This document shows positions 2,407-53,922 of a DNA stretch of 64,000 nucleotides, piece by piece. A model generated the notes under the pieces. That model did not search any database. It had not been told where the DNA came from and saw only the letters and a program-made list of their open reading frames with translations. Position 1 is the first letter of the stretch, and each line of letters starts with the position of its first letter. The translations under genes and the position numbers were made by a program. The stretch is from Oscillospiraceae bacterium (GTDB lineage Bacteria > Bacillota > Clostridia > Oscillospirales > Oscillospiraceae): the NCBI GenBank assembly GCA_017458335.1, contig JAFTFT010000029.1, positions 1-64,000 of the forward strand, given 5' to 3'.

Positions 2407-3339
2407 TTACTCCGCAAAGAGCGGCGTGGAAAGGTATCTGTCGCCGGTATCCGGTAAAAGGGCGACGATCGTCTTACCCTTGTTCTCCGGCCGCTTTGCC
2501 AGCTGAACCGCGGCCCAGACCGCTGCGCCGGAGGAGATTCCGACCAGGACGCCTTCCGTACGGCCGACCTTTTTCCCCGCCGCAAAAGCATCTTCATTTT
2601 CCACGGCAATGATTTCATCATACACGGCCGTGTTCAGTACGTCCGGGACAAAGCCGGCGCCGATCCCCTGAATCTTGTGGGCGCCTGCCGTTCCCCTGGA
2701 GAGCACGGGCGAGCCGGCGGGTTCCACCGCCACAACCTTCACCGCCGGATTCTGTTCCTTGAGATACTCGCCAACTCCTGTGATCGTTCCGCCGGTTCCG
2801 ACGCCGGCAACAAAGATATCCACCTTCCCATCGGTATCCGTCCAGATCTCCGGACCGGTCGTCGCCCTGTGGACGGCGGGATTCGCCGGGTTGACAAACT
2901 GCCCGGGGATGAAGGCATCGGGGATCTCCCCGGCCAGTTCGTCAGCCCTGGCAATGGCGCCTTTCATGCCCTTGGAGCCCTCGGTAAGCACCAGCTCTGC
3001 GCCGTAGGCCTTCATCAGCTGTCGACGCTCCACGCTCATGGTTTCAGGCATGACGATGATAATCCGATAGCCTCTTGCCGCCGCAACGGAAGCAAGTCCG
3101 ATGCCGGTGTTGCCGGAGGTGGGCTCGATGATTACAGAACCCGGCTTCAGCAGTCCTTTCGCCTCCGCGTCGTCGATCATTGCCTTGGCGATGCGGTCTT
3201 TGACGGAGCCGGCGGGGTTAAAGTATTCCAGTTTCGCAAGAATCGTGGCTTCCAGGCCTTCTTCTTTTTCAAGCTTCGTGAGCTCCAGCAGCGGGGTCTT
3301 CCCGATCAGCTGATCTGCGGATGTATAGATGTTGGACAT
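2407..3339 (-). CDS. cysK: cysteine synthase A (O-acetylserine sulfhydrylase)
   Basis: A PLP enzyme that makes L-cysteine from O-acetylserine and sulfide in the cytoplasm. At 310 residues it has the usual CysK length. The PLP lysine is in NPAGSVKDR, the substrate-binding loop is TSGNTG, the phosphate-binding glycine loop is GVGTGGT, and SSGAA and LLPDTGDRY lie near the C-terminus as in true CysK. The ATG at 3339 has an AGGAGG site that overlaps the stop of a 28-codon upstream frame (3344-3430). The gene sits behind a Cys-rich leader and attenuator, so it is probably switched on by cysteine shortage. A second synthase-like gene (43120-44031) is more like MccA, which leaves this as the general cysteine synthase. 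Confidence 0.95.
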
Positions 3340-3343
3340 GGTG

Positions 3344-3430
3344 TTATCCTCCTGTTTTTATCGTATTGTTTTGGGGTATCTGTCTTTCGGGCAGGGGACA
3401 ACATCGTTCTTTCAGCAGTATCATGGTCAT
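3344..3430 (-). CDS. small upstream frame in the cysK leader, 28 codons
   Basis: An ATG with a strong GGAGGAAGG site opens a 28-residue frame ([17 protein letters not shown]...) ending in TAA 4 bases before the cysK ATG. The cysK ribosome site lies inside its last codons, so translation of cysK could be coupled to it. It contains a Cys-Cys pair at residues 10-11. It lies downstream of the attenuator terminator, so it would act as a second, translational layer. No homology is recognised and it may be regulatory only. Confidence 0.45.
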
Positions 3431-3479
3431 GATTCCTTCCTCCCTGTTTGAACGCGGTCATGTTGTTTTCAGGTCACTC

Positions 3480-3515
3480 AAAATAAAGAAACCGGGAACC
3501 CCATCGGGTCCCCGG
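3480..3515 (-). terminator. attenuator terminator of the cysK leader
   Basis: The transcript can form a 10-bp stem (arms 3506-3515 and 3492-3501, one G-U pair) with a GATG loop, followed by TTTCTTTATTTT. It lies between the Cys-rich leader and cysK. A copy of part of the 3' arm, CTCCGG (3531-3536), directly follows the leader stop and could pair with the 5' arm CCGGGG to form an antiterminator. The pairing is inferred by eye. Confidence 0.75.
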
Positions 3516-3537
3516 ATAAAAGCGGTTTCACCGGAGG

Positions 3538-3618
3538 TCAAATGGGTATGGCAAAGCACACGCGCCTCTCACAGCACATGTCACAACACATCATTCTGTT
3601 AACGATTGCCCTACGCAT
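3538..3618 (-). CDS. Cys-rich leader peptide 1 (26 aa), upstream of cysK
   Basis: A 26-codon frame with ATG at 3618 and a good site, CCGGAGG, 5 bases before it. Residues 9-17 read MMCCDMCCE and Cys occurs at 11, 12, 15, 16 and 21, so five of 26 codons are Cys. It is followed at once by an intrinsic terminator and then cysK. It matches leader 2 (46860-46940) in length, in the position of the Cys run and in the closing PI/PV. By analogy with amino-acid attenuators, ribosome stalling at the Cys codons when charged tRNA-Cys is scarce would prevent terminator formation. The peptide itself is probably not functional. Confidence 0.8.
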   Translation of the reverse strand: MRRAIVNRMMCCDMCCERRVCFAIPI

Positions 3619-3638
3619 AGCTGCCTCCGGGTAAATTA

Positions 3639-3684
3639 CCTATTAACATAGTATGTTTATAGCACATAAATTTTTTCCTGTCAA
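3639..3684 (-). promoter_or_regulatory. sigma-A promoter and 17-bp quasi-palindrome of the cysK leader
   Basis: On the minus strand TTGACA (3679-3684), a 17-bp spacer and TATAAA (3656-3661) form a near-perfect promoter. Immediately downstream is CATACTATGTTAATAGG (3639-3655). Closely related words occur at 46968-46984 and 52302-52318, which suggests a shared regulator site near the transcription start. Confidence 0.8.
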
Positions 3685-3692
3685 CCCTTTTT

Positions 3693-3724
3693 TTAAAAAA
3701 ACACCCCGCCGGATGGCGGGGTGT
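3693..3724 (-). terminator. enolase terminator
   Basis: Arms ACACCCCGCC (3701-3710) and its complement (3715-3724), with a run of eight T on the minus strand, follow the enolase stop. It insulates eno from the cysK leader promoter 9 bases further on. Confidence 0.85.
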
Positions 3725-3747
3725 CATTCTTTCTGTGGACTTGTGTC

Positions 3748-5040
<1,293 letters not shown>

Positions 5041-43119: not shown

Positions 43120-44031
43120 TCAATCATACAGGTGCTTGCTGAAATAGCGCTCGCCCCGGTCCGGCAGCAGTGTGACGATGTTTCCCCGCACGCCGTTTTC
43201 AATCAGCTTTTTGGCCGCAGCCACAGCTGCGCCGGATGAGGTGCCTACAATCAGGCCCTCCTTCGCAGCAAGCTCCTTCACTTCCGCAAATGCCGCTGTG
43301 TCACTGACCTTGATTACCTGATCCACCAGAGAAATGTCCATGGTCTCGGGGATAAAATCGTTTCCGATGCCCTCAATGTCATAATCCGCGTGCTCCCCGC
43401 CGCCGATGGTGGATCCCAGCGGGTCGGCCAGCACGCCCCGTATCGCGGGGTTTTGCTCCTTCAGATATTTTACCACGCCGGTATAAGTACCGCCGCTGCC
43501 CGCGCCCGCCACAAAGCAGTCGATCTTCCCTTCCAAGTCCCGGTAGATCTCCGGGCCGGTGGTCTCATAGTGAGAAAGCGGATTCGCGGGATTCCTGAAC
43601 TGCCCCAGCATGACTGCACCGGGGATAGAGGCGCGCAGCTCCTCGGCCTTGGCCGCGGCGCCGAGCATCCCGTCCTCACGCGGCGTATTGAGGATCTCCG
43701 CGCCCAGGGCACGCATCAGCGTCTGCTTTTCCTGTGAGAATTTGGTGGGCACAACGAAAATCACCCGGTAACCCCGGCCCAGCGCGGCAAAGGCGATCCC
43801 GAGCCCGGTGTTGCCTGCCGTGGCCTCGATGATGGTCCCGCCCGGCCTGAGCAGCCCGTCTCGCTCCGCTGCGTCGATCATATATTTGCCCACGCGATCT
43901 TTGACGCTGCCCGCCGGGTTATAGGTCTCCAGCTTGGCGTAGAGCCGCGCGTCCGCGGGCAGTCCCAACTTAGTCAGGCGCACAAGGGGCGTGTTGCCGA
44001 TAAGCTCCTGCATGGATTCATATACCGCCAT
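43120..44031 (-). CDS. mccA: cystathionine beta-synthase/cysteine synthase, MccA-like
   Basis: A 303-residue PLP enzyme. [14 protein letters not shown] carries the PLP lysine, EATAGNTGLGIAF the substrate loop, GAGSGGTYTGV the phosphate loop and LLPDRGERYFS the end. The EATAGNTG loop and the pairing with a mccB-like gene match the reverse transsulfuration pair known in Bacillus subtilis, where MccA makes cystathionine from homocysteine and O-acetylserine. ATG 44031 directly follows the mccB stop. The other synthase in the window, cysK, lacks this context. Confidence 0.88.
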   Translation of the reverse strand: MAVYESMQELIGNTPLVRLTKLGLPADARLYAKLETYNPAGSVKDRVGKYMIDAAERDGLLRPGGTIIEATAGNTGLGIAFAALGRGYRVIFVVPTKFSQEKQTLMRALGAEILNTPREDGMLGAAAKAEELRASIPGAVMLGQFRNPANPLSHYETTGPEIYRDLEGKIDCFVAGAGSGGTYTGVVKYLKEQNPAIRGVLADPLGSTIGGGEHADYDIEGIGNDFIPETMDISLVDQVIKVSDTAAFAEVKELAAKEGLIVGTSSGAAVAAAKKLIENGVRGNIVTLLPDRGERYFSKHLYD

Positions 44032-44032
44032 G

Positions 44033-45193
44033 TTATCTGACCTCACTTTCCGTTATGGCCTGCTCCAGATCCGCAAGCAGATCTTCGGCATTCTCGATCC
44101 CGATGGAGAGACGGATCAAACCGTCCGTGATTCCCACCGCCTCCCGGATCTTCCTGGGAATAGAGGCGTGGGTCATAGTGGCCGGATGACACACCAGGCT
44201 TTCCACGCCGCCAAGACTCTCCGCCAGAGCGATCAGCTTCAGGGAGGAGAAAAACTGCCGGATCTCGTGCTTTTCGTCCAGCTCGAAGGAAATCATGGCG
44301 CCGCCGTTTTTTGCCTGCCTGCGGTTGATCTCATAGCCCTGCGCGTCAGGCAGGCCGGGATAATAGACGTTCTTCACCGCCGAATGCTTCTTCAGGAAAG
44401 CGGCGGCCTTCTCCGCGTTTTCCACATGTCTGTCCATTCGCACGCCCAGCGTCTTGATCCCGCGGATCAGCAAAAAGGAATCAAACGGTCCCAGCACGGC
44501 GCCCGCCGCGTTTTGAAGGAAAGCAAGCCTTGCTGCCAGAGCGCTGTCCCTGACCACGGCCAGTCCCGCGATCAGATCGCTGTGTCCGCCGAGATACTTG
44601 GTCGCGCTGTGCACCACAATGTCGGCGCCCAGCTCCAGCGGCCGCTGCAGATAGGGCGTCATGAAGGTATTGTCCACGATGGAGAGAAGCCCGTGTCTGT
44701 GAGCGATTTCCGAGACTGCGGCCAGATCCGTGACCGTCAGCAGCGGGTTTGCCGGGCTTTCCACCAGAACAGCCCGGACCTCCGGCGTAATGGCCGCCTC
44801 GAACACGGCCAGATTCGTGGTATCCGCAATGGCGTAACCGATTCCGAACTGTTGGAACACCTGATCGAGCAGGCGGAAAGTACCTCCGTAGACATTGCTG
44901 GAGATCAGGATCTTATCCCCCGAACGAAACAGACTCAGCACCGTCGTGATCGCCGCAAGGCCGGAGGCAAAGGCAAAGCCCGCTGTTCCTCCCTCCAGCT
45001 CCGCGATCAGCGCTTCCAGCGCGGCGCGTGTCGGATTGCCGGTGCGGGAATATTCCCAGCCCGTATTCTGGCCGAGCCCCTGCTGCTCATAGGTAGAAGT
45101 CTGATAGATCGGCACGTTGACCGCGCCGGTGGTCTTATCTCCGTAAATGCCGCCGTGGATCAGGGCGGATTCGATATGCTGATATTGCGCCAT
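44033..45193 (-). CDS. mccB: cystathionine gamma-lyase/homocysteine lyase, MccB-like
   Basis: A 386-residue gamma-family PLP enzyme. GAVNVPIYQTSTYEQQ, EYSRTGNPTRAALE, SSNVYGGTFRLL, DNTFMTPYLQRPLELG and the PLP lysine in HSATKYLGGHSDL are close to B. subtilis MccB. It splits cystathionine to cysteine, and may release sulfide from homocysteine. It is second in the operon, 102 bases after metY and contiguous with mccA. Confidence 0.9.
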   Translation of the reverse strand: MAQYQHIESALIHGGIYGDKTTGAVNVPIYQTSTYEQQGLGQNTGWEYSRTGNPTRAALEALIAELEGGTAGFAFASGLAAITTVLSLFRSGDKILISSNVYGGTFRLLDQVFQQFGIGYAIADTTNLAVFEAAITPEVRAVLVESPANPLLTVTDLAAVSEIAHRHGLLSIVDNTFMTPYLQRPLELGADIVVHSATKYLGGHSDLIAGLAVVRDSALAARLAFLQNAAGAVLGPFDSFLLIRGIKTLGVRMDRHVENAEKAAAFLKKHSAVKNVYYPGLPDAQGYEINRRQAKNGGAMISFELDEKHEIRQFFSSLKLIALAESLGGVESLVCHPATMTHASIPRKIREAVGITDGLIRLSIGIENAEDLLADLEQAITESEVR

Positions 45194-46625: not shown

Positions 46626-46654
46626 CCGATCAAACCCCAGCGGAGCAGGTTTGA
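46626..46654. repeat. inverted repeat in the metY 5' region
   Basis: GATCAAACC, an 11-base loop and GGTTTGATC, 40 bases before the metY ATG. It may be a second RNA hairpin between the small frame and metY. Confidence 0.5.
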
Positions 46655-46674
46655 TCGGGAGAGCAGGAACAAAG

Positions 46675-46788
46675 TCACCGGTCAATGGAGCAGCACTCAT
46701 GCGGTCCCATGACCTTATGGCCTTGTTCCGACGTCATTCGTCCGTTCCTGAAATTGTGCCGGTTCAACAGCTCAAACAGATCTTTCAT
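46675..46788 (-). CDS. small upstream frame in the metY leader, 37 codons
   Basis: ATG 46788 with GAGGTG upstream opens MKDLFELLNRHNFRNGRMTS, later HECCSIDR and a stop 89 bases before metY. It has a Cys-Cys pair (residues 32-33), as has the equivalent frame before cysK. It lies after the attenuator. It may be a small protein or a second regulatory leader. Confidence 0.4.
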   Translation of the reverse strand: MKDLFELLNRHNFRNGRMTSEQGHKVMGPHECCSIDR

Positions 46789-46802
46789 GTTTCACCTCAA
46801 AA

Positions 46803-46835
46803 ACAAAAATCCGGAGAACCCATCGGGCTCCCCGG
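46803..46835 (-). terminator. attenuator terminator of the metY leader
   Basis: An 11-bp stem with G-U pairs (arms 46825-46835 and 46811-46821), loop GAT, then ATTTTTGTTTTT on the minus strand. GTTCTCC (46853-46859), just after the leader stop, copies part of the 3' arm and could pair with GGGGAGC to form an antiterminator. Confidence 0.75.
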
Positions 46836-46859
46836 TCGTCCACAAAGCAATAGGAGAAC

Positions 46860-46940
46860 TCAAACGGGCACACCAAAGCGCATGCGCATCTCACAGCGCA
46901 TGTCACAACACATCATGCAGTTGAAGCTCGCCTGACGCAT
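46860..46940 (-). CDS. Cys/Met-rich leader peptide 2 (26 aa), upstream of metY
   Basis: A 26-codon frame with ATG 46940 and GGAGG 8 bases before it. Residues 9-17 are MMCCDMRCE, in register with leader 1; Cys at 8, 11, 12 and 16, and Met also at 9, 10, 14, 18 and 20. It ends FGVPV and is followed by an attenuator terminator. The same length and same positions of the Cys run as leader 1, with differing flanks, indicate selection on codon content and spacing. Confidence 0.8.
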   Translation of the reverse strand: MRQASFNCMMCCDMRCEMRMRFGVPV

Positions 46941-46967
46941 TTCAAGTCCTCCGTTAATTCTACTTTT

Positions 46968-47013
46968 CCTATCGAATTGATATGTTTATATCACAAACCT
47001 CTCGCTTTGTCAA
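46968..47013 (-). promoter_or_regulatory. sigma-A promoter and 17-bp quasi-palindrome of the metY leader
   Basis: Minus strand TTGACA (47008-47013), 17-bp spacer, TATAAA (46985-46990), then CATATCAATTCGATAGG (46968-46984). The layout is base for base that of the cysK leader promoter. Confidence 0.8.
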
Positions 47014-47038: not shown

Positions 47039-48184
47039 CTAATACTCCTCCAGGAAATGGTGCCGGACGCCGTCTTTCTTATACGCGATCACCGTGTTGA
47101 GATTCACATTGGAAACGCTCTTGAAAATATTGGCCTCGATCTGTGGATTTGTCTCTTTCAGAGCTGCGATCAGCTTTTTCGTCTCAAGGCGTTTTGAGGC
47201 GGTGGTGCCGTCCTCGTGGCAGGTGGTGCAGGTGTCGGTAAAATGACAGGCACACTGCAGAAAGTGCAGTTCGCTCCAGTCCCGCCAGCGGCAGATGTCC
47301 GCTTCTCGAATAAGATACATCGGACGGATCAGCTCCATGCCTTCAAAATTGGTGCTGTGCAGTTTCGGCATCATGGTTTGAACCTGTCCCCCGTGCAGCA
47401 TTCCCATCAGAATCGTCTCAATGACATCGTCATAGTGATGACCGAGCGCAATTTTGTTGCACCCGAGTTCCTTCGCCTTGCTGTAAAGATACCCCCTGCG
47501 CATTCTCGCGCATAGATAGCAGGGGTTTTTCTCCACCGTATCCACCACGTCAAAAATTGTGCTTTCAAAAACAGTGATCGGAACCCCGAGCGTCTTTGCG
47601 TTGTACTCCAGCAGGCGCCGGTTGTCGCCGTTATAGCCCGGATCCATCACCAGAAACAGCAGGTCAAAGGAGATCTTCCGGTGCCTTTGAAGCTCCTGAA
47701 ACAACTTCGCCATGAGCATGGAGTCTTTTCCGCCCGAGATACAGACCGCGATGCGGTCTCCGTCTTCCACGAGCCGGTATTCTTTGCAGGCTTTTGCAAA
47801 CGGAGAAAAGAGCTGCTTATGGAATTTTCCGCGAATGCTGTCTTCGGCCTTTTCCTGACGTTCCTGCCTGTCTTCCATTTTATTTGTCGTTGCTCTCAGC
47901 CAGGCGAGATATCCTCCTGCCAGGCTGAAGCATTCTCTGCCGCAATCGGCAAGCGCTTCAGACACCGCGATCGAACGAACGCCCCGCTGACAGTAAACGA
48001 TCAGCTTTCTGCCGTCAGGCAGCTCCCGGGCAAATCGCGCCGCGTTCTCCATCAGTTCCGTCTCCGAAATATGGATTGCCCCGGGGATCCTGCCATACCG
48101 CACATTGTCCGCACTTCTGGTATCGATCAAAAGGAAACTGCCTTCTTCCATACGCTCCAGCTCGGATATGGAAACTTCTCTCAT
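47039..48184 (-). CDS. rhodanese-TtcA-like ATP pyrophosphatase fusion
   Basis: A 381-residue two-domain protein. Residues 1-105 are a rhodanese with active-site Cys in IVYCQRGVRS. Residues ~135-381 are a PP-loop ATPase of the TtcA/TilS type with ICISGGKDSM-like AVCISGGKDSM, a CYLCARMRRG pair and CHFTDTC/TCHED cysteines that could hold an iron-sulfur cluster. It would move sulfane sulfur to an adenylated substrate, in tRNA or in another target. It is the last gene of the thiocarboxylate operon. Confidence 0.85.
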   Translation of the reverse strand: MREVSISELERMEEGSFLLIDTRSADNVRYGRIPGAIHISETELMENAARFARELPDGRKLIVYCQRGVRSIAVSEALADCGRECFSLAGGYLAWLRATTNKMEDRQERQEKAEDSIRGKFHKQLFSPFAKACKEYRLVEDGDRIAVCISGGKDSMLMAKLFQELQRHRKISFDLLFLVMDPGYNGDNRRLLEYNAKTLGVPITVFESTIFDVVDTVEKNPCYLCARMRRGYLYSKAKELGCNKIALGHHYDDVIETILMGMLHGGQVQTMMPKLHSTNFEGMELIRPMYLIREADICRWRDWSELHFLQCACHFTDTCTTCHEDGTTASKRLETKKLIAALKETNPQIEANIFKSVSNVNLNTVIAYKKDGVRHHFLEEY

Positions 48185-48191
48185 GGCCTGA

Positions 48192-48956
48192 CTACCTCTT
48201 TTTCACGTTACAAAGATCCTTTACCACTTCTCCCGCAAGGATCAGTCCAACGACCGCTGGCACGAAGGCCACAGAACCGGGAATATCCCGCCTGTCGGTG
48301 CAGTGGCGCTTTGTCCCGGGCGGGCAGATGCAGTGGGCACGGCAGCTGATGCTCAGATCCTCCAGCGGCCGGATGGGCTTTTCTCCGGAGTAGACGACCT
48401 TCAAATGCCTGACGCCGCGCTTTTTGAGTTCCCGCCGCATGACACGCGCCAGCGGACAGACCGAGGTCTGCGTGATATCCGCCACGCGAAAGGCGGTGGC
48501 GTCCAGCTTGTTGCCCGCGCCCATGGAGCTGATGATCGGTGTTCCGGCCGCCCGGGCCGCCAGCACCAGCTGTATTTTGCCGCTCACCGTGTCGATGGCG
48601 TCCACTACATAATCATATTGGGAAAAATCGAATTCCTCTGCCTTATCCGGCAGATAAAAGGTCTTGTAGGTCCGTACCGCGCAGCGCGGATTGATTTCAC
48701 CGATCCGCTCGGCGGCCACATCCACCTTGTATTTTCCCACGGTCTTTCGCGTGGCGAGGATCTGCCGGTTGATGTTGGTCAGGCAGACCTTGTCGTCATC
48801 GATCAGATCCAGCGCGCCGATCCCCGTTCTTGCCAAAGCCTCGACCGTATAGCCGCCCACGCCGCCGATCCCGAAAACTGCCACCCGACTGTGCGCAAGC
48901 CTGTCCATGGCTTCCGGCCCCAGCAAAAGCTGGGTCCGCGAAAATTCATTCAGCAT
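48192..48956 (-). CDS. tcdA: TcdA-like E1 activating enzyme
   Basis: A 254-residue ThiF/E1-fold protein of the tRNA threonylcarbamoyladenosine dehydratase type. The nucleotide loop is VFGIGGVGGYTVEALARTGIG, with DDDKVCLTNINRQI and VVDAIDTVSGK. In Escherichia coli TcdA cyclises t6A with help of a CsdA-CsdE sulfur relay. Its place inside a sulfur-carrier operon may instead indicate a role in carrier activation. Confidence 0.9.
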   Translation of the reverse strand: MLNEFSRTQLLLGPEAMDRLAHSRVAVFGIGGVGGYTVEALARTGIGALDLIDDDKVCLTNINRQILATRKTVGKYKVDVAAERIGEINPRCAVRTYKTFYLPDKAEEFDFSQYDYVVDAIDTVSGKIQLVLAARAAGTPIISSMGAGNKLDATAFRVADITQTSVCPLARVMRRELKKRGVRHLKVVYSGEKPIRPLEDLSISCRAHCICPPGTKRHCTDRRDIPGSVAFVPAVVGLILAGEVVKDLCNVKKR

Positions 48957-48984
48957 ATCTCCGATTTATATCCTTTACCTTCCT

Positions 48985-49794
48985 TTATTCCGTCTTCTCG
49001 AGCGTCTCATTCATGCTTCCCGTGCGATAGCCGGTCAGATCCATGGTCACATAGGCAAAACCGTACTCCCGGAAGGCCGCGGTGACCGTCTCTCTCACAG
49101 ACAGAAGCTTTTCAAAGTCCTCCGGGTCAGTCTCGATTCTAGCCAGCTGGCCGTGGATCCGGACACGCACCTGGCGAAAACCCAGATCCAGAAGCAGCTG
49201 TTCCGCGCGATCCACCATGGAAAGCCGCTCTTCATTGATCGTCTCCCCGTACACAAAACGGGAGGAGAGGCAGGCGAAGCTCTGCTTGTTCCAGGTGAGC
49301 AGGCCCAGCTCCCTGGACAGCTCCCGGATCTCCGCCTTGTTTAGGCCGACGTGACGCAGCGGGCTGAGCACGCCCAGCTCTCTGACCGCGACAAGGCCGG
49401 GGCGATAATCCCCGCTGTCATCCATGTTGGAGCCCTCCGCCACGGCATTCAGGCCAAGCTCACGGGCAATGTCCCAGATCTTTTCAAATAACTCGTGCTT
49501 GCAGAGATAACAACGGTTTTTCGGATTGTGCCGAAAGCCCTCGATCTCCAGTTCCTCCGAGCGCACCACGACATGATGGATTCCGTTTGTCTCGCAGAAA
49601 GCTTTTGCCTCTTTCAGCTCCCGCTCCGGGAAAGAACAGGAGGAGGCCGTCACGGCGACGCACTTGTCGCCCAGCGTGTCGTGGGCCACCTTCAAAAGGA
49701 AAGTGGAATCCACTCCGCCGGAAAAGGCCACGGCCATGCTGCCCTGAGACAGCAGATATTCTTTTAGTTGATTCAGTTTTTCGCTCATTGTCAT
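48985..49794 (-). CDS. larE: LarE-like ATP-dependent sacrificial sulfurtransferase
   Basis: A 269-residue PP-loop enzyme. AVAFSGGVDSTFLLKVA is the ATP loop, NRCYLCKHELF a Cys pair, and QSFACLSSRF holds the cysteine used in LarE as sulfur donor. In Lactobacillus it makes the nickel-pincer cofactor with LarB and LarC, but neither those nor LarA are seen here. Its place between TcdA and the rhodanese-TusA fusion suggests a sulfur-mobilising role in this operon. Confidence 0.9.
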   Translation of the reverse strand: MTMSEKLNQLKEYLLSQGSMAVAFSGGVDSTFLLKVAHDTLGDKCVAVTASSCSFPERELKEAKAFCETNGIHHVVVRSEELEIEGFRHNPKNRCYLCKHELFEKIWDIARELGLNAVAEGSNMDDSGDYRPGLVAVRELGVLSPLRHVGLNKAEIRELSRELGLLTWNKQSFACLSSRFVYGETINEERLSMVDRAEQLLLDLGFRQVRVRIHGQLARIETDPEDFEKLLSVRETVTAAFREYGFAYVTMDLTGYRTGSMNETLEKTE

Positions 49795-50817
49795 TCAGAT
49801 AAACAAACTCATATCCGACTGCTCGCCGGATCCCAGGAAAGTGGAAACACCGCCCAGCTCCACGCCGTCGATCAGTTCTTCCTTCCTGATCCCCATGATG
49901 TCCATGGACATCTGGCAAGCCACCAGCCGCACACCGTGAACGCGGGCGCTGTCGATCAGTTCTTCAAGAGAACTGACGCCTTTCTCTTTCATAATGCCCC
50001 GGATCATTTTGGCGCCGAGGCCGCCCATGTTCATACGGCTCAGCCCCAGCTTTTTCGTTCCTCTGGGCATCATAAAGCCGAACATACCCTCAATGAAGCT
50101 CTTGGCGACGGAAACCTTTTCCGGCCGCCGCAGGATGTTCAGCCCCCAGAAGGTGAAAAACATGGTCACCCTGCGCCCCATGGCCGCTGCACCGTTTGCC
50201 ATAATGAAGGCGGCGATGGTTTTATCAAGATCGCCGGAGAAAACCACAAAGGTCTTGTCGTTCTGTGCGGCAGCGGGATTTTGAACAGGCGCCTCGGCTT
50301 TCTCGACCAGCGCCTCGATGCCCTCGGGCCTGACCTCCAGCCGGAGCAGCTTGTTGCCGGTCCGCTCGCACCATACCGAAATATCCGGGGCAAACGCGTC
50401 CTCCGTCGCCTCGATCTTCAGCTTTTGACCGCCCACCATCTCTCTCAGCGTGTCCGCGGTTTTTACGATCGGGCCGGGGCATTTGAGTCCCCTGGCATCC
50501 AGCGTGATCGGCTCCGCCTCTTCCAGCCACTTTTTCCACGCTCGCCAGCCGCCGTCCAGATTGGTCGCGTCATAGCCCCAATCCTGCAGCTGCTCCGTGA
50601 TCTCCGTGCTCAAAGAGCCCTCCTGGCAAAACACATAGACAGGCTTATCCTTTGGCAGCTTCTCCAGCTCCTTGCCGACGCGGGAAAAGGGGATGTTGAC
50701 AGCGCCCTCCACGGCCCCCAGCAGAACCTGGTCCGGCTCACGCAGATCCAGCAGTGTCAGGCTGTTCCGCTCCAGCTTCAAAAACTCCTCAACGGAGATA
50801 TGTTTGATTTCATCCAT
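49795..50817 (-). CDS. rhodanese-TusA-DsrE2 fusion protein
   Basis: A 340-residue sulfur-relay fusion. Residues 1-100: rhodanese with active Cys in YVFCQEGSLS. Residues ~104-175: TusA-like with ARGLKCPGPIVK. Residues ~185-340: DsrE/F-like (DsrE2) domain with VVFSGDLDKTIAAFIMANGA and a cysteine in VACQMSMDIMG. The three sulfur-binding steps are thus on one chain, giving a pipeline from a persulfide donor to the carrier proteins encoded next to it. Confidence 0.88.
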   Translation of the reverse strand: MDEIKHISVEEFLKLERNSLTLLDLREPDQVLLGAVEGAVNIPFSRVGKELEKLPKDKPVYVFCQEGSLSTEITEQLQDWGYDATNLDGGWRAWKKWLEEAEPITLDARGLKCPGPIVKTADTLREMVGGQKLKIEATEDAFAPDISVWCERTGNKLLRLEVRPEGIEALVEKAEAPVQNPAAAQNDKTFVVFSGDLDKTIAAFIMANGAAAMGRRVTMFFTFWGLNILRRPEKVSVAKSFIEGMFGFMMPRGTKKLGLSRMNMGGLGAKMIRGIMKEKGVSSLEELIDSARVHGVRLVACQMSMDIMGIRKEELIDGVELGGVSTFLGSGEQSDMSLFI

Positions 50818-52264: not shown

Positions 52265-52318
52265 TTGACAAAGGAAAACAAATGCAGTATAAACAAAATA
52301 ACATATCAAGTCAATAGG
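52265..52318. promoter_or_regulatory. face-to-face divergent promoters sharing the sulfur quasi-palindrome
   Basis: Plus strand TTGACA (52265-52270), 17 bp, TATAAA (52288-52293) drives leader 3. Minus strand TTGACT (52309-52314), 17 bp, TATACT (52286-52291) drives the ThiS operon. CATATCAAGTCAATAGG (52302-52318) covers the minus -35 box and lies just downstream of the plus -10. The two -10 boxes overlap, so the promoters must compete. Confidence 0.8.
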
Positions 52319-52322
52319 TTAA

Positions 52323-52445
52323 ATGGGTGAAATGAACGTGAAATTCTGCGAAAAAATGAGCTGCGGGATGCTGTGCATGTCTGAGCGCATGTGCATGTGT
52401 TTTCGCGCCCATTTTTTCGAGTTCACGTGTTGCTCTGTTTCATAA
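52323..52445 (+). CDS. Cys/Met-rich leader peptide 3 (40 aa), upstream of the AGCS symporter
   Basis: A 40-codon frame from ATG 52323 (AGG upstream; a weak site). Cys at 9, 14, 18, 24, 26, 36 and 37, Met at 1, 4, 12, 16, 19, 23 and 25; the core MLCMSERMCMCF recalls leaders 1 and 2. It is followed by an intrinsic terminator and the symporter gene. GAGTTC at 52419-52424 within its last third copies part of the terminator 3' arm and could act as antiterminator. Another internal ATG might be the true start. Confidence 0.7.
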   Translation: MGEMNVKFCEKMSCGMLCMSERMCMCFRAHFFEFTCCSVS

Positions 52446-52468
52446 CATCACAGGAACAGAAGCGCAAA

Positions 52469-52502
52469 ACCGGGGACTCAAGATCGAGTCCCCGGTACTT
52501 TT
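52469..52502 (+). terminator. attenuator terminator of the symporter leader
   Basis: Perfect 11-bp arms ACCGGGGACTC (52469-52479) and complement (52486-52496), followed by ACTTTTTTC, 23 bases before the symporter ATG. Confidence 0.85.
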
Positions 52503-52524
52503 TTCAGGGAAAGGGGAAAAGAAA

Positions 52525-53922
52525 ATGGAAGCAGTCATCGGGAAAATTTTGGGGGATCTGGGCACGTTCCTGTTCGGCCCGATCATGCTGGCGGTGTTTT
52601 TTGGAGTTGGTTTGTACTTCACAATCCGCCTGCGCGGTGTACAGTTCACGCGCTTTGGAACGGCCTTCCGGGAAGTTGTCGGCAATGTCGGGAAGAAGAC
52701 GGACGACGGCATCGGTCAGATCCGCTCCTACAAGGCGCTGGCCACGGCGCTGTCCTCCTGCGTAGGCAACGGCAACATCGTGGGTGTTGCCTACGCCATT
52801 GCCGTTGGAGGGCCTGGGGCGATCTTCTGGATGTGGGTCGCGGCTCTGGGCGGCATGGCGACGAAGTTTGCCGAGATTGCCCTGGCCATGCATTTTCGCA
52901 TCCAGGACGAGGACGGCAATTTCCGTGGCGGTGTCATGTATATTCTGACCCGGGGAATGAAACACAAGACCATTGCCAGGATCCTGGGCGGCGCTTTCGC
53001 GGTGTTTACGGTCTTTGTCTCCGTTGTTTCCTGCGGGGCATTGCAGGTCAACACCATCAACAGCGCTGTCAGCGGTTTTGTAGGCAACACCACCGTGATT
53101 CCGTGGATTGTTGCGATTCTGATTCTGGTGGTCGACGGGCTGGTCATCTTCGGCGGCGTCAGAAAGATCTCTGACGTGACCACCTTTCTGACCCCCATCA
53201 TGGCGCTGATCTATCTGGGCTTCGGTCTCGTGATCCTCATCATGAACATCACGCTTATTCCGCAGGCTCTGCGGTTTATCGTGAAGTCTGCCTTTACCGG
53301 CGATGCGGTGATCGGCGGTGTGGCGGGCGCCACCATGGGCATCGCTATCCGGAGGGGAGTCCAGCGCGGTGTGTTCTCCAACGAAGCCGGCACCGGCTCC
53401 TCGGCCATGGTACATGCCACGGCCAAGGTGGATGTTCCCGTCAAGCAGGCGCTCTACGGCATTATTGAGGTCTTTTTTGACACCTTCGTCATCTGCACCT
53501 TTACTGCTCTGATTGTCATGGTCAGCGGCGTGTGGAACAGCGGTGTCACAGACGGCACGGTGCTGGCCTCCACGGCTTTTCGTCAGAATCTGGGCGGGCT
53601 TGGGCAAGTCGTGATCGTTATTTCTCTGATTCTGTTTTGCCTCTCTACAGTACTGGGCTGGTATACCTACGGTGAATCCGCCTTTGCCTTTCTGTTCGGC
53701 ACTCACAGGGTAAAGATTTACCGGGTGCTGCACATGGTGATCTGCGCCCTCGGCGCGCTCATCAGCGTGCAGCTCCTCTGGGACGCGGCGGACGTCTGCA
53801 ACGGCCTCATGGCCATTCCCAACCTGTTCTCTTTGATTCTCTTCGGCGGGATCGTCGTAAAGGATACGAAGGACTTCTTTGCCGATTACGATCACACGCA
53901 ATCCGGCGGAAGAGCGAAATAA
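52525..53922 (+). CDS. AGCS-family sodium:amino acid symporter
   Basis: A 465-residue membrane transporter of the alanine or glycine:cation symporter family, with ten or so hydrophobic segments. Family signatures GNGNIVGVAYAIAVGGPGAIFWMW and SNEAGTGSSAMVHA are seen. Classical members carry alanine or glycine with sodium. Here the gene stands behind a Cys/Met-rich leader and attenuator, with a promoter like those of cysK and metY, so cysteine, methionine or a related sulfur compound is a more likely substrate; this is inference. AAAGGGG precedes ATG. Confidence 0.92.
   Translation: MEAVIGKILGDLGTFLFGPIMLAVFFGVGLYFTIRLRGVQFTRFGTAFREVVGNVGKKTDDGIGQIRSYKALATALSSCVGNGNIVGVAYAIAVGGPGAIFWMWVAALGGMATKFAEIALAMHFRIQDEDGNFRGGVMYILTRGMKHKTIARILGGAFAVFTVFVSVVSCGALQVNTINSAVSGFVGNTTVIPWIVAILILVVDGLVIFGGVRKISDVTTFLTPIMALIYLGFGLVILIMNITLIPQALRFIVKSAFTGDAVIGGVAGATMGIAIRRGVQRGVFSNEAGTGSSAMVHATAKVDVPVKQALYGIIEVFFDTFVICTFTALIVMVSGVWNSGVTDGTVLASTAFRQNLGGLGQVVIVISLILFCLSTVLGWYTYGESAFAFLFGTHRVKIYRVLHMVICALGALISVQLLWDAADVCNGLMAIPNLFSLILFGGIVVKDTKDFFADYDHTQSGGRAK

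Follow-up and report, generated by a model that had tools for sequence, protein, structure and literature searches.

Cysteine-codon leaders before cysK and metY in a ruminant-gut clostridial genus as probable trp-like transcription attenuators

RESULTS

Three Cys-rich leaders in one window

The window, that is, the whole analysed stretch of 64,000 nucleotides, contains three leader regions, at 3684-3480 (-), 47013-46799 (-) and 52265-52504 (+). They lie in front of cysK (leader 1), metY followed by mccB- and mccA-like genes (leader 2) and agcS (leader 3). In all three, a TTGACA-17-TATAAA promoter is followed by an operator-like quasi-palindrome, then by a short frame rich in Cys and finally by an intrinsic terminator. 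The individual features are listed below (L, G and C numbers in the text are our handles for loci, genomes and contigs).

3656-3684 (-): promoter-like TTGACA-17-TATAAA of leader 1, a sequence match
3639-3655 (-): operator-like quasi-palindrome of leader 1, CATACTATGTTAATAGG, consensus CATATCAAnnnnATAGG
3619-3631 (-): Shine-Dalgarno (SD) site of leader 1, which is strand A and covaries with post-stop strand B
3538-3618 (-): leader peptide 1, MRRAIVNRMMCCDMCCERRVCFAIPI and stop, 26 codons, Cys at 11, 12, 15, 16 and 21; supported by frame and relatives
3559-3580 (-): coding hairpin P of leader 1 (codons 13-20), a predicted RNA polymerase pause hairpin
3524-3537 (-): post-stop strand B of leader 1, with strand A or the terminator 5' arm (C) as partner
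3480-3515 (-): intrinsic terminator of leader 1 (C:D plus T run)
3344-3424 (-): second short frame before cysK, its end overlapping the cysK SD
2407-3339 (-): cysK (TIGR01139)
46985-47013 (-): promoter-like TTGACA-17-TATAAA of leader 2
46968-46984 (-): operator-like CATATCAATTCGATAGG of leader 2
46941-46953 (-): SD of leader 2, strand A (the covariation set held the similar L035 in place of leader 2)
46860-46940 (-): leader peptide 2, MRQASFNCMMCCDMRCEMRMRFGVPV and stop, 26 codons
46881-46902 (-): coding hairpin P of leader 2, CATGCGC-8 nt-GCGCATG
46847-46859 (-): post-stop strand B of leader 2, GTTCTCC
46799-46835 (-): intrinsic terminator of leader 2
46735-46788 (-): second short frame before metY, codons 1-18 MKDLFELLNRHNFRNGRM, followed by 19 more codons
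45296-46585 (-): metY, O-acetylhomoserine sulfhydrylase (TIGR01326)
43120-45193 (-): two genes, mccB-like and mccA-like, with cystathionine gamma-lyase/synthase-type and cysta_beta/cysKM-type matches that are below curated cut-offs and among the 25 best matches listed
52265-52293 (+): promoter-like TTGACA-17-TATAAA of leader 3
52302-52318 (+): operator-like CATATCAAGTCAATAGG of leader 3
52332-52445 (+): leader peptide 3, 37 codons, 7 Cys, of another family
52470-52504 (+): intrinsic terminator of leader 3
52525-53922 (+): agcS symporter (TIGR00835)

A preliminary description of this DNA had proposed that the three loci share one module. The promoter and the quasi-palindrome are indeed present at all three, and the terminators could be located. 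Leaders 1 and 2 also agree, as it had stated, in their length of 26 codons and in MMCCDM(C/R)CE at residues 9-17. Judged by their sequences, these two leaders are homologous, each having an SD site and an intrinsic terminator. The window has 99 ATG frames of 15-45 codons with an SD in front. A strict terminator follows within about 60 nt in only two of them, leaders 1 and 2, which also belong to the five frames with at least four Cys; leader 3 falls outside this set because its SD is weak. Upstream of leader 2, at 47039-50817 (-), lies a sulfur-transfer cluster consisting of a rhodanese fused to a TtcA-like domain, a ThiF/TcdA-like gene and a rhodanese-TusA-DsrE2 fusion.

The claim that all three loci carry a single peptide family did not hold. 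Leader 3 lacks MMCCDM and has its own peptide family, with the core MS(A/E)xM(C/Y)MC and its own relatives; we rejected its homology to the other two leaders. Its best start, according to relatives in which the SD is clear, is at 52332 (37 codons) and not at 52323. Relatives of this peptide precede agcS-like genes, as judged from N-termini compared by eye, in four genomes (G131, G059, G031 and G114); in each, the fold of lowest energy contains a coding hairpin, and a terminator is present, that of G131 with a mismatch. A related peptide is also encoded at L244 in G015. Leader 3 probably works like leaders 1 and 2 with a different peptide, and it may be regarded as a parallel case, less well supported than they are.

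Distribution and downstream genes

Searched with a profile of 15 leaders, 29 of the 102 genomes of the genus, the genome of the window included, gave matches at E<=1.7e-4, 37 in all. The next weaker match has E 0.0028, and a still weaker one in G118 (E 0.0051) is real by context. When the leader 1 peptide was the sole query, 25 of 99 related genomes gave matches at E<=1, many of which are due to chance. Our compilation comprises 40 leaders. The genus contributes 38, found in 30 genomes; of the other two, L068 comes from a different family of the order and L086 from a named MAG. The question raised in the preliminary description, whether the frames are conserved beyond a single genome, is thus answered by the 38 leaders in 30 genomes.

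Six of 295 genomes of the order matched at E<=0.01; the window's own genome and L068 are real, and the other four matches are not leader-like by eye. For the class it was 3 of 331 genomes at the same threshold, with only the own genome convincing. Since the two remaining matches (E 0.0037, with an internal stop, and E 0.0067) lack the leader layout by eye, we rejected a class-wide spread of the attenuator. An exact DNA pattern scan of a genome collection matched 24 stretches, among which records of the own genome may be absent. They are titled uncultured Oscillospiraceae, Ruminococcaceae, Eubacteriaceae, Eubacteriales, Clostridiales or Clostridia, and several of these titles mention the gut of goat, sheep, water buffalo or roe deer. 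As far as sampled, these sequences suggest a switch that is essentially confined to one ruminant-gut genus.

Sulfur or amino-acid genes lie downstream of 38 of the 40 leaders. The next gene is cysK in 19 cases, metY in 10, an amino-acid ABC permease in four, a B3/4-domain gene followed by cysK in two, and a solute-binding protein and an SDF-type symporter in one each. In L086, a 73-codon 5' remnant of metY is followed by a B3/4 gene and then cysK. The contig of L049 ends before the gene, inside a metY-type second frame, and L061 has neither a terminator (by the same finder as for the other leaders) nor a sulfur gene nearby. The B3/4-domain gene between leader and cysK is seen at L004 (PF03483), L036 and L086. 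The metY start in L086 and a C-terminal metY remnant in L020 are traces of lost metY genes. Two further leaders are found in the window's own genome (G000): a Cys leader before an SDF-type symporter on contig C42 (L057) and, in front of a second cysK on contig C16 near 111 kb (L142), the variant FCCVCCNVRCG.

Cysteine codons and a hairpin within the frame

The comparisons below are based on 31 representative leaders; eight near-duplicates and L061 are left out. In the alignment, all 31 frames stay open for 26 codons, and they offer what a ribosome-mediated attenuator needs: a short frame that can be translated and contains regulatory codons for the amino acid of the pathway. Drift of the Cys codons in relatives, which the preliminary description had named as counter-evidence, did not occur: Cys is kept at codon 11 in 28, at codon 12 in 29 and at codon 16 in 27 of the 31. 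Both TGT and TGC are used at codons 11 and 12, and TGT only at codon 16. At least one of the three positions is W, G, R, M or S in six leaders (L011, L027, L029, L049, L052 and L068). The replacement is Trp (TGG) in L027, L029, L049 and L052, and L027, L029 and L052 precede metY.

The Met codons, which had been thought to provide a second signal, behave differently. M9 is present in 29 of 31 leaders, but Met at codons 10, 14, 18 and 20 only in 22, 22, 25 and 13, respectively, and codons 14 and 20 vary together with the pairing of a hairpin inside the frame. We therefore rejected Met as a signal read by leaders 1 and 2.

This hairpin (P) is formed by leader nucleotides 39-45 and 54-60 (codons 13-20), which pair in 213 of 217 cells over the 31 distinct leaders. 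Shuffling codons within columns gave at most 210 pairs in 1000 trials, whereas synonymous-only shuffling reached 213 in 22 of 1000, so that the signal is carried by amino-acid-changing swaps. Compensatory swaps include R15C together with H19 (C-G to U-A) and M14T or M14A together with V20, besides a change of G-C to A-U at 42-57. For 27 representatives, 97.9% of 189 cells are paired and both sides have changed in three of the seven pairs, a result reached by 11 of 500 shuffles; the covariation score exceeds all 500, although these shuffles take no account of relatedness. Sliding the 3' arm by +2 still leaves 84.1% of the cells paired in these 27 leaders, which we put down to GCGC repeats. It seems, then, that the conserved peptide motif is largely RNA structure, and that its 'Met-rich' character is mostly a by-product of the coding hairpin.

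Hairpin-stabilised pauses have the consensus G-10/Y-1. A pause-like site lies 11 nt after P, with U at leader nucleotide 71 in 31 of 31 and G at nucleotide 62 in 29 of 31 leaders; both fit this consensus, and a pause is predicted here. Codon 24 is I, V, L or M in all 31 leaders, by which U71 is kept, and its conservation may thus have a peptide-level reason.

Promoter, switch strands and terminator

At least 10 of 12 promoter bases match at spacing 17 in all 31 representatives. The operator consensus is kept in most, not all, of them, and the quasi-palindrome is probably the operator of an Rrf2/CymR-type repressor. At the other end, every representative has a terminator-like GC-rich hairpin with at least five T in the next 9 nt; in other words, an intrinsic terminator precedes the gene in 31 of 31, as in attenuators, and the left-out L061 has none.

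Between these ends, four strands can be recognised besides P. Strand A is the SD of the leader. Strand B consists of the bases right behind the stop codon and starts there whether this codon is TGA, TAG or TAA (the frame of L013 runs on, and its B was taken from the frame end). Strands C and D are the arms of the terminator. B can pair with A or C, and C with B or D. A and B covary strongly: for the 31 representatives, the mean duplex energy is -12.25 kcal/mol for A with its own B and -10.2 crosswise, and none of 5000 permutations was as good. The A:C control gave no signal (-6.95 own, -7.06 crosswise).

For B and C the pairing is seen as complementarity only. On average B is the best partner of C, with -10.6 at the stop codon against -3.5 to -6.7 for windows starting at least 8 nt upstream; in 13 of 31 leaders, however, C has a stronger partner than B somewhere further upstream. 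Covariation of terminator and antiterminator, a check put forward in the preliminary description, was not found for B:C: over the 31 representatives the energies were -10.73 (own) and -10.86 (crosswise), and 3185 of 5000 permutations did as well. Folded whole, 29 of 31 leaders keep C:D at lowest energy, and 30 of 31 do so after removal of the region that a ribosome stalled at codon 12 would cover. Since free energy favours the terminator, an antiterminator would have to win kinetically, by forming first.

A second short frame between terminator and gene

An additional short frame is usual between terminator and gene in the compiled leaders; there is none at L059 (cysK) or at L004 and L036 (B3/4 gene). 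In front of metY, of MetQ-type (NlpA) genes and of some ABC genes, this frame is 18 codons long and has the form M-x3-F-x2-L-L-R-x-N-(F/Y/W)-R-x-G-R-M (hereafter the GRM frame). We aligned 73 examples by their RM, 17 picked by the string CGAATG and 56 by a peptide model, with the window's own frame counted in both sets. Codon 17 is R in 67 of the 73 rows, and the codon for the Arg of the aligned RM is CGA in all 73, including all 56 found by the peptide model. Elsewhere in the frame codons vary: R10 is CGA in 5 of 72 rows and R14 in 17 of 73, and N12 is AAT in 38 and AAC in 35. This difference implies that the peptide is selected as a peptide and codon 17 as a codon. After M18 comes a stop in 24 and Cys in 28 of the 73 rows. 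As regards a possible arrest peptide, sequence comparison finds the second frame conserved at the peptide level.

The GRM frame is more widely spread than the attenuator. At E<=0.001 it occurs in 32 of 150 genomes of the family and, own genome included, in 25 of 341 of the class, where it is found in 14 families besides the own, 15 in all; among 299 genomes of the phylum only the own matched. By BLAST, the next gene is metY in 24 of 30 family examples, the own included, and the other six include one ABC permease and three binding-protein genes. In the class, 24 of 26 examples are followed by a metY-like N-terminus by eye and two by a binding protein. A strong hairpin without a T run (CCGATCAAACC/GGTTTGATCGG, 46626-46658 (-)) lies between second frame and metY in the window, and similar ones are seen by eye in L035, L032 and L027.

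Before cysK the second frame is shorter, M(x)nRC, with RC coded CGA-TGT; its first eight codons in the window are 3424-3401 (-). Of 68 regions upstream of cysK, 43 contain CGATGT within their last 200 nt, whether an attenuator is present or not. Elsewhere in the class, CGA TGT in an SD-led frame occurs in 3 of the 33 cysK regions read (L221, L222 and L226); four of these 33 belong to loci that had been retrieved because of their GRM frame. L020 has a fusion of a metY-type second frame with a C-terminal metY remnant, behind which stand an RCRP frame and cysK, an arrangement indicating that the second-frame element goes with the gene.

Apart from the metY remnant of L020, the second-frame peptides compared with NCBIfam matched nothing there, and the region of leader 2 has no Rfam match up to E 5. 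A pattern open to other amino acids after the GR-CGA scaffold had one match in the own genome, that of metY, against six for a reversed control pattern. FRFGRM and NFRNGRM were not found in the open-licence literature searched. The end of the GRM frame may resemble actinobacterial 'RRHVDLGRM' peptides; the string RRHVDL was not found in the open-licence papers searched.

DISCUSSION

Proposed mechanism and alternatives

We consider it likely that leaders 1 and 2 are ribosome-mediated, trp-like transcription attenuators reading charged tRNA-Cys. The features behind this reading, namely the frames, hairpin P with its compensatory changes, the A:B covariation, the terminators and the gene context, can be seen directly in the sequences, and from them we infer the pause, the stalling of the ribosome and the read-through. 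RNA polymerase would make hairpin P and probably pause 11 nt later, giving a ribosome time to load on the leader SD (A). When Cys is plentiful, the ribosome would reach the stop codon and cover B, so that the terminator C:D forms and transcription stops. When Cys-tRNA is short, the ribosome would stall at Cys11/12 (or 16), leaving B free to pair with C before D is made, and transcription would read into cysK or metY-mccBA. In a leader that is not translated, A would pair with B and the terminator would form. Because A lies about 30 nt upstream of the Cys codons, the stalled ribosome alone need not cover it, and a second, initiating ribosome may be needed. The Cys pair mostly begins at codon 11; measured from the start codon this is roughly the length of one ribosome, so that A could be occupied by a second ribosome during the stall.

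Of the interpretation given in the preliminary description, a clostridial Cys-codon attenuator present in many species and associated with sulfur genes remains, and Met sensing and the single peptide family do not. The hairpin P, the pairing of the SD with the post-stop strand, the pause-like site, the second frame and the narrow distribution were absent from it.

The same observations could be read in other ways. Since hairpin P imposes much of the peptide motif, and since A:B covaries strongly and appears in the minimum-energy structure of the five leaders that were folded whole, the RNA itself might be the sensor. In that case P, A:B and the terminator would together bind a protein or ligand, and the open frame would be incidental. 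Against this, the frame is open throughout its 26 codons in 31 of 31 aligned leaders, TGT and TGC replace each other at Cys codons 11 and 12, and B begins right at the stop codon, whichever of TGA, TAG and TAA it is. Nor does the window match any Rfam model at gathering score, and leader 2 has no match up to E 5. Over 3300-3760 there are 15 sub-threshold matches (E 0.0079 to 4.1), all unconvincing; most coincide with the neighbouring gene's terminator near 3690-3730, STnc100 (E 0.49) lies over leader 1 and SorX (E 0.08) behind it. We therefore regard an RNA sensor as very improbable. Even less probable is a Cys-rich peptide that acts in trans as a small protein, for instance binding metal or responding to redox state, next to an ordinary terminator. 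A conserved peptide with Cys-Cys and acidic residues would suit such a role, but the changes at R15/H19 and M14/M20 track RNA pairing and not chemistry, 38 of the 40 leaders lie in cis to a sulfur or amino-acid gene, and leaders 1, 2 and 3 have no NCBIfam match up to E 10.

Control might also be exerted at initiation. The operator-like motif follows the -10 box in most of the 31 leaders. By eye it also stands before some cysK genes that have no leader (L105, L118 and L119), and an Rrf2 gene (PF02082) adjoins cysK in L124. An Rrf2/CymR-type repressor acting at the quasi-palindrome, with the terminator as a constant brake, would nevertheless leave the covarying A:B and P helices and the Cys codons unexplained, and as the whole explanation we hold it to be very improbable. 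The repressor and the attenuator may instead be two layers acting together.

Besides trp-like attenuation by the leader, the second frame (R-C before cysK, GR-M before metY) would add a further step. It is tempting to imagine a two-stage sulfur switch, in which the nascent L-x-R-x-N-(F/Y/W)-R-x-G-R holds the ribosome at CGA and the next codon, ATG or TGT, tests the supply of that aminoacyl-tRNA or a related metabolite. On present sequences we consider this speculative and rather unlikely. If true, the two-stage switch would be a new clostridial class of amino-acid-specific leaders, the sensed amino acid being set by the codon after CGA; with its invariant CGA, the second frame makes nascent-chain reading of Met/Cys supply in Clostridia testable.

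Comparison with known systems

Cys and Met T-box and S-box (SAM-I) riboswitches of Firmicutes control terminators before the same genes in related bacteria. Here control would instead run via translation of a frame, and no T-box or SAM riboswitch model matched the window at the Rfam gathering score.

Cys leader peptides are known from Actinobacteria. They were predicted there in 2005 by Seliverstov, without obvious terminators (PMC1262725), were seen in mycobacteria by Shell in 2015 (PMC4633059), and are cited as translation attenuation with Canestrari 2020 as reference (PMC13236596); an example of a leader-peptide transcription attenuator is ilvB of Mycobacterium tuberculosis (PMC13236596). 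The actinobacterial Cys leaders share with ours the Cys-codon uORFs before cysteine genes, but have their Cys run near the stop and no obvious terminator, whereas the present leaders have an intrinsic terminator and competing helices. By the criteria for actinobacterial polycysteine uORFs ours would not be counted among them, as their conserved Cys are at 11, 12 and 16 of 26 and a terminator is present. Within Firmicutes, hisS/hisZ leader peptides are described in bacilli (PMC2965389) and a leucine-rich attenuator is reported in Staphylococcus aureus (PMC5794164). Compared by description, these likewise represent leader-peptide attenuation, with other amino acids. The preliminary description had suggested that a clostridial Cys attenuator may be undescribed, and we found no cysteine leader of this kind from Clostridia or other Firmicutes in the open-licence literature searched, which is weak evidence of absence.

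Leader-peptide transcription attenuators of the trp/his type are an established kind. With these the present leaders share the SD-led frame with regulatory codons and the intrinsic terminator, and they may also share a pause-type hairpin and a switch strand. They differ in the amino acid, which is cysteine, in the putative anti-antiterminator strand, which is the leader's own SD, and in the putative switch strand, which begins at the stop codon. The proposed attenuator would add cysteine to the amino acids under full trp-like attenuator control, would show a clostridial switch of this type found in essentially one genus, and would provide an example of an apparent peptide motif that is in reality RNA structure.
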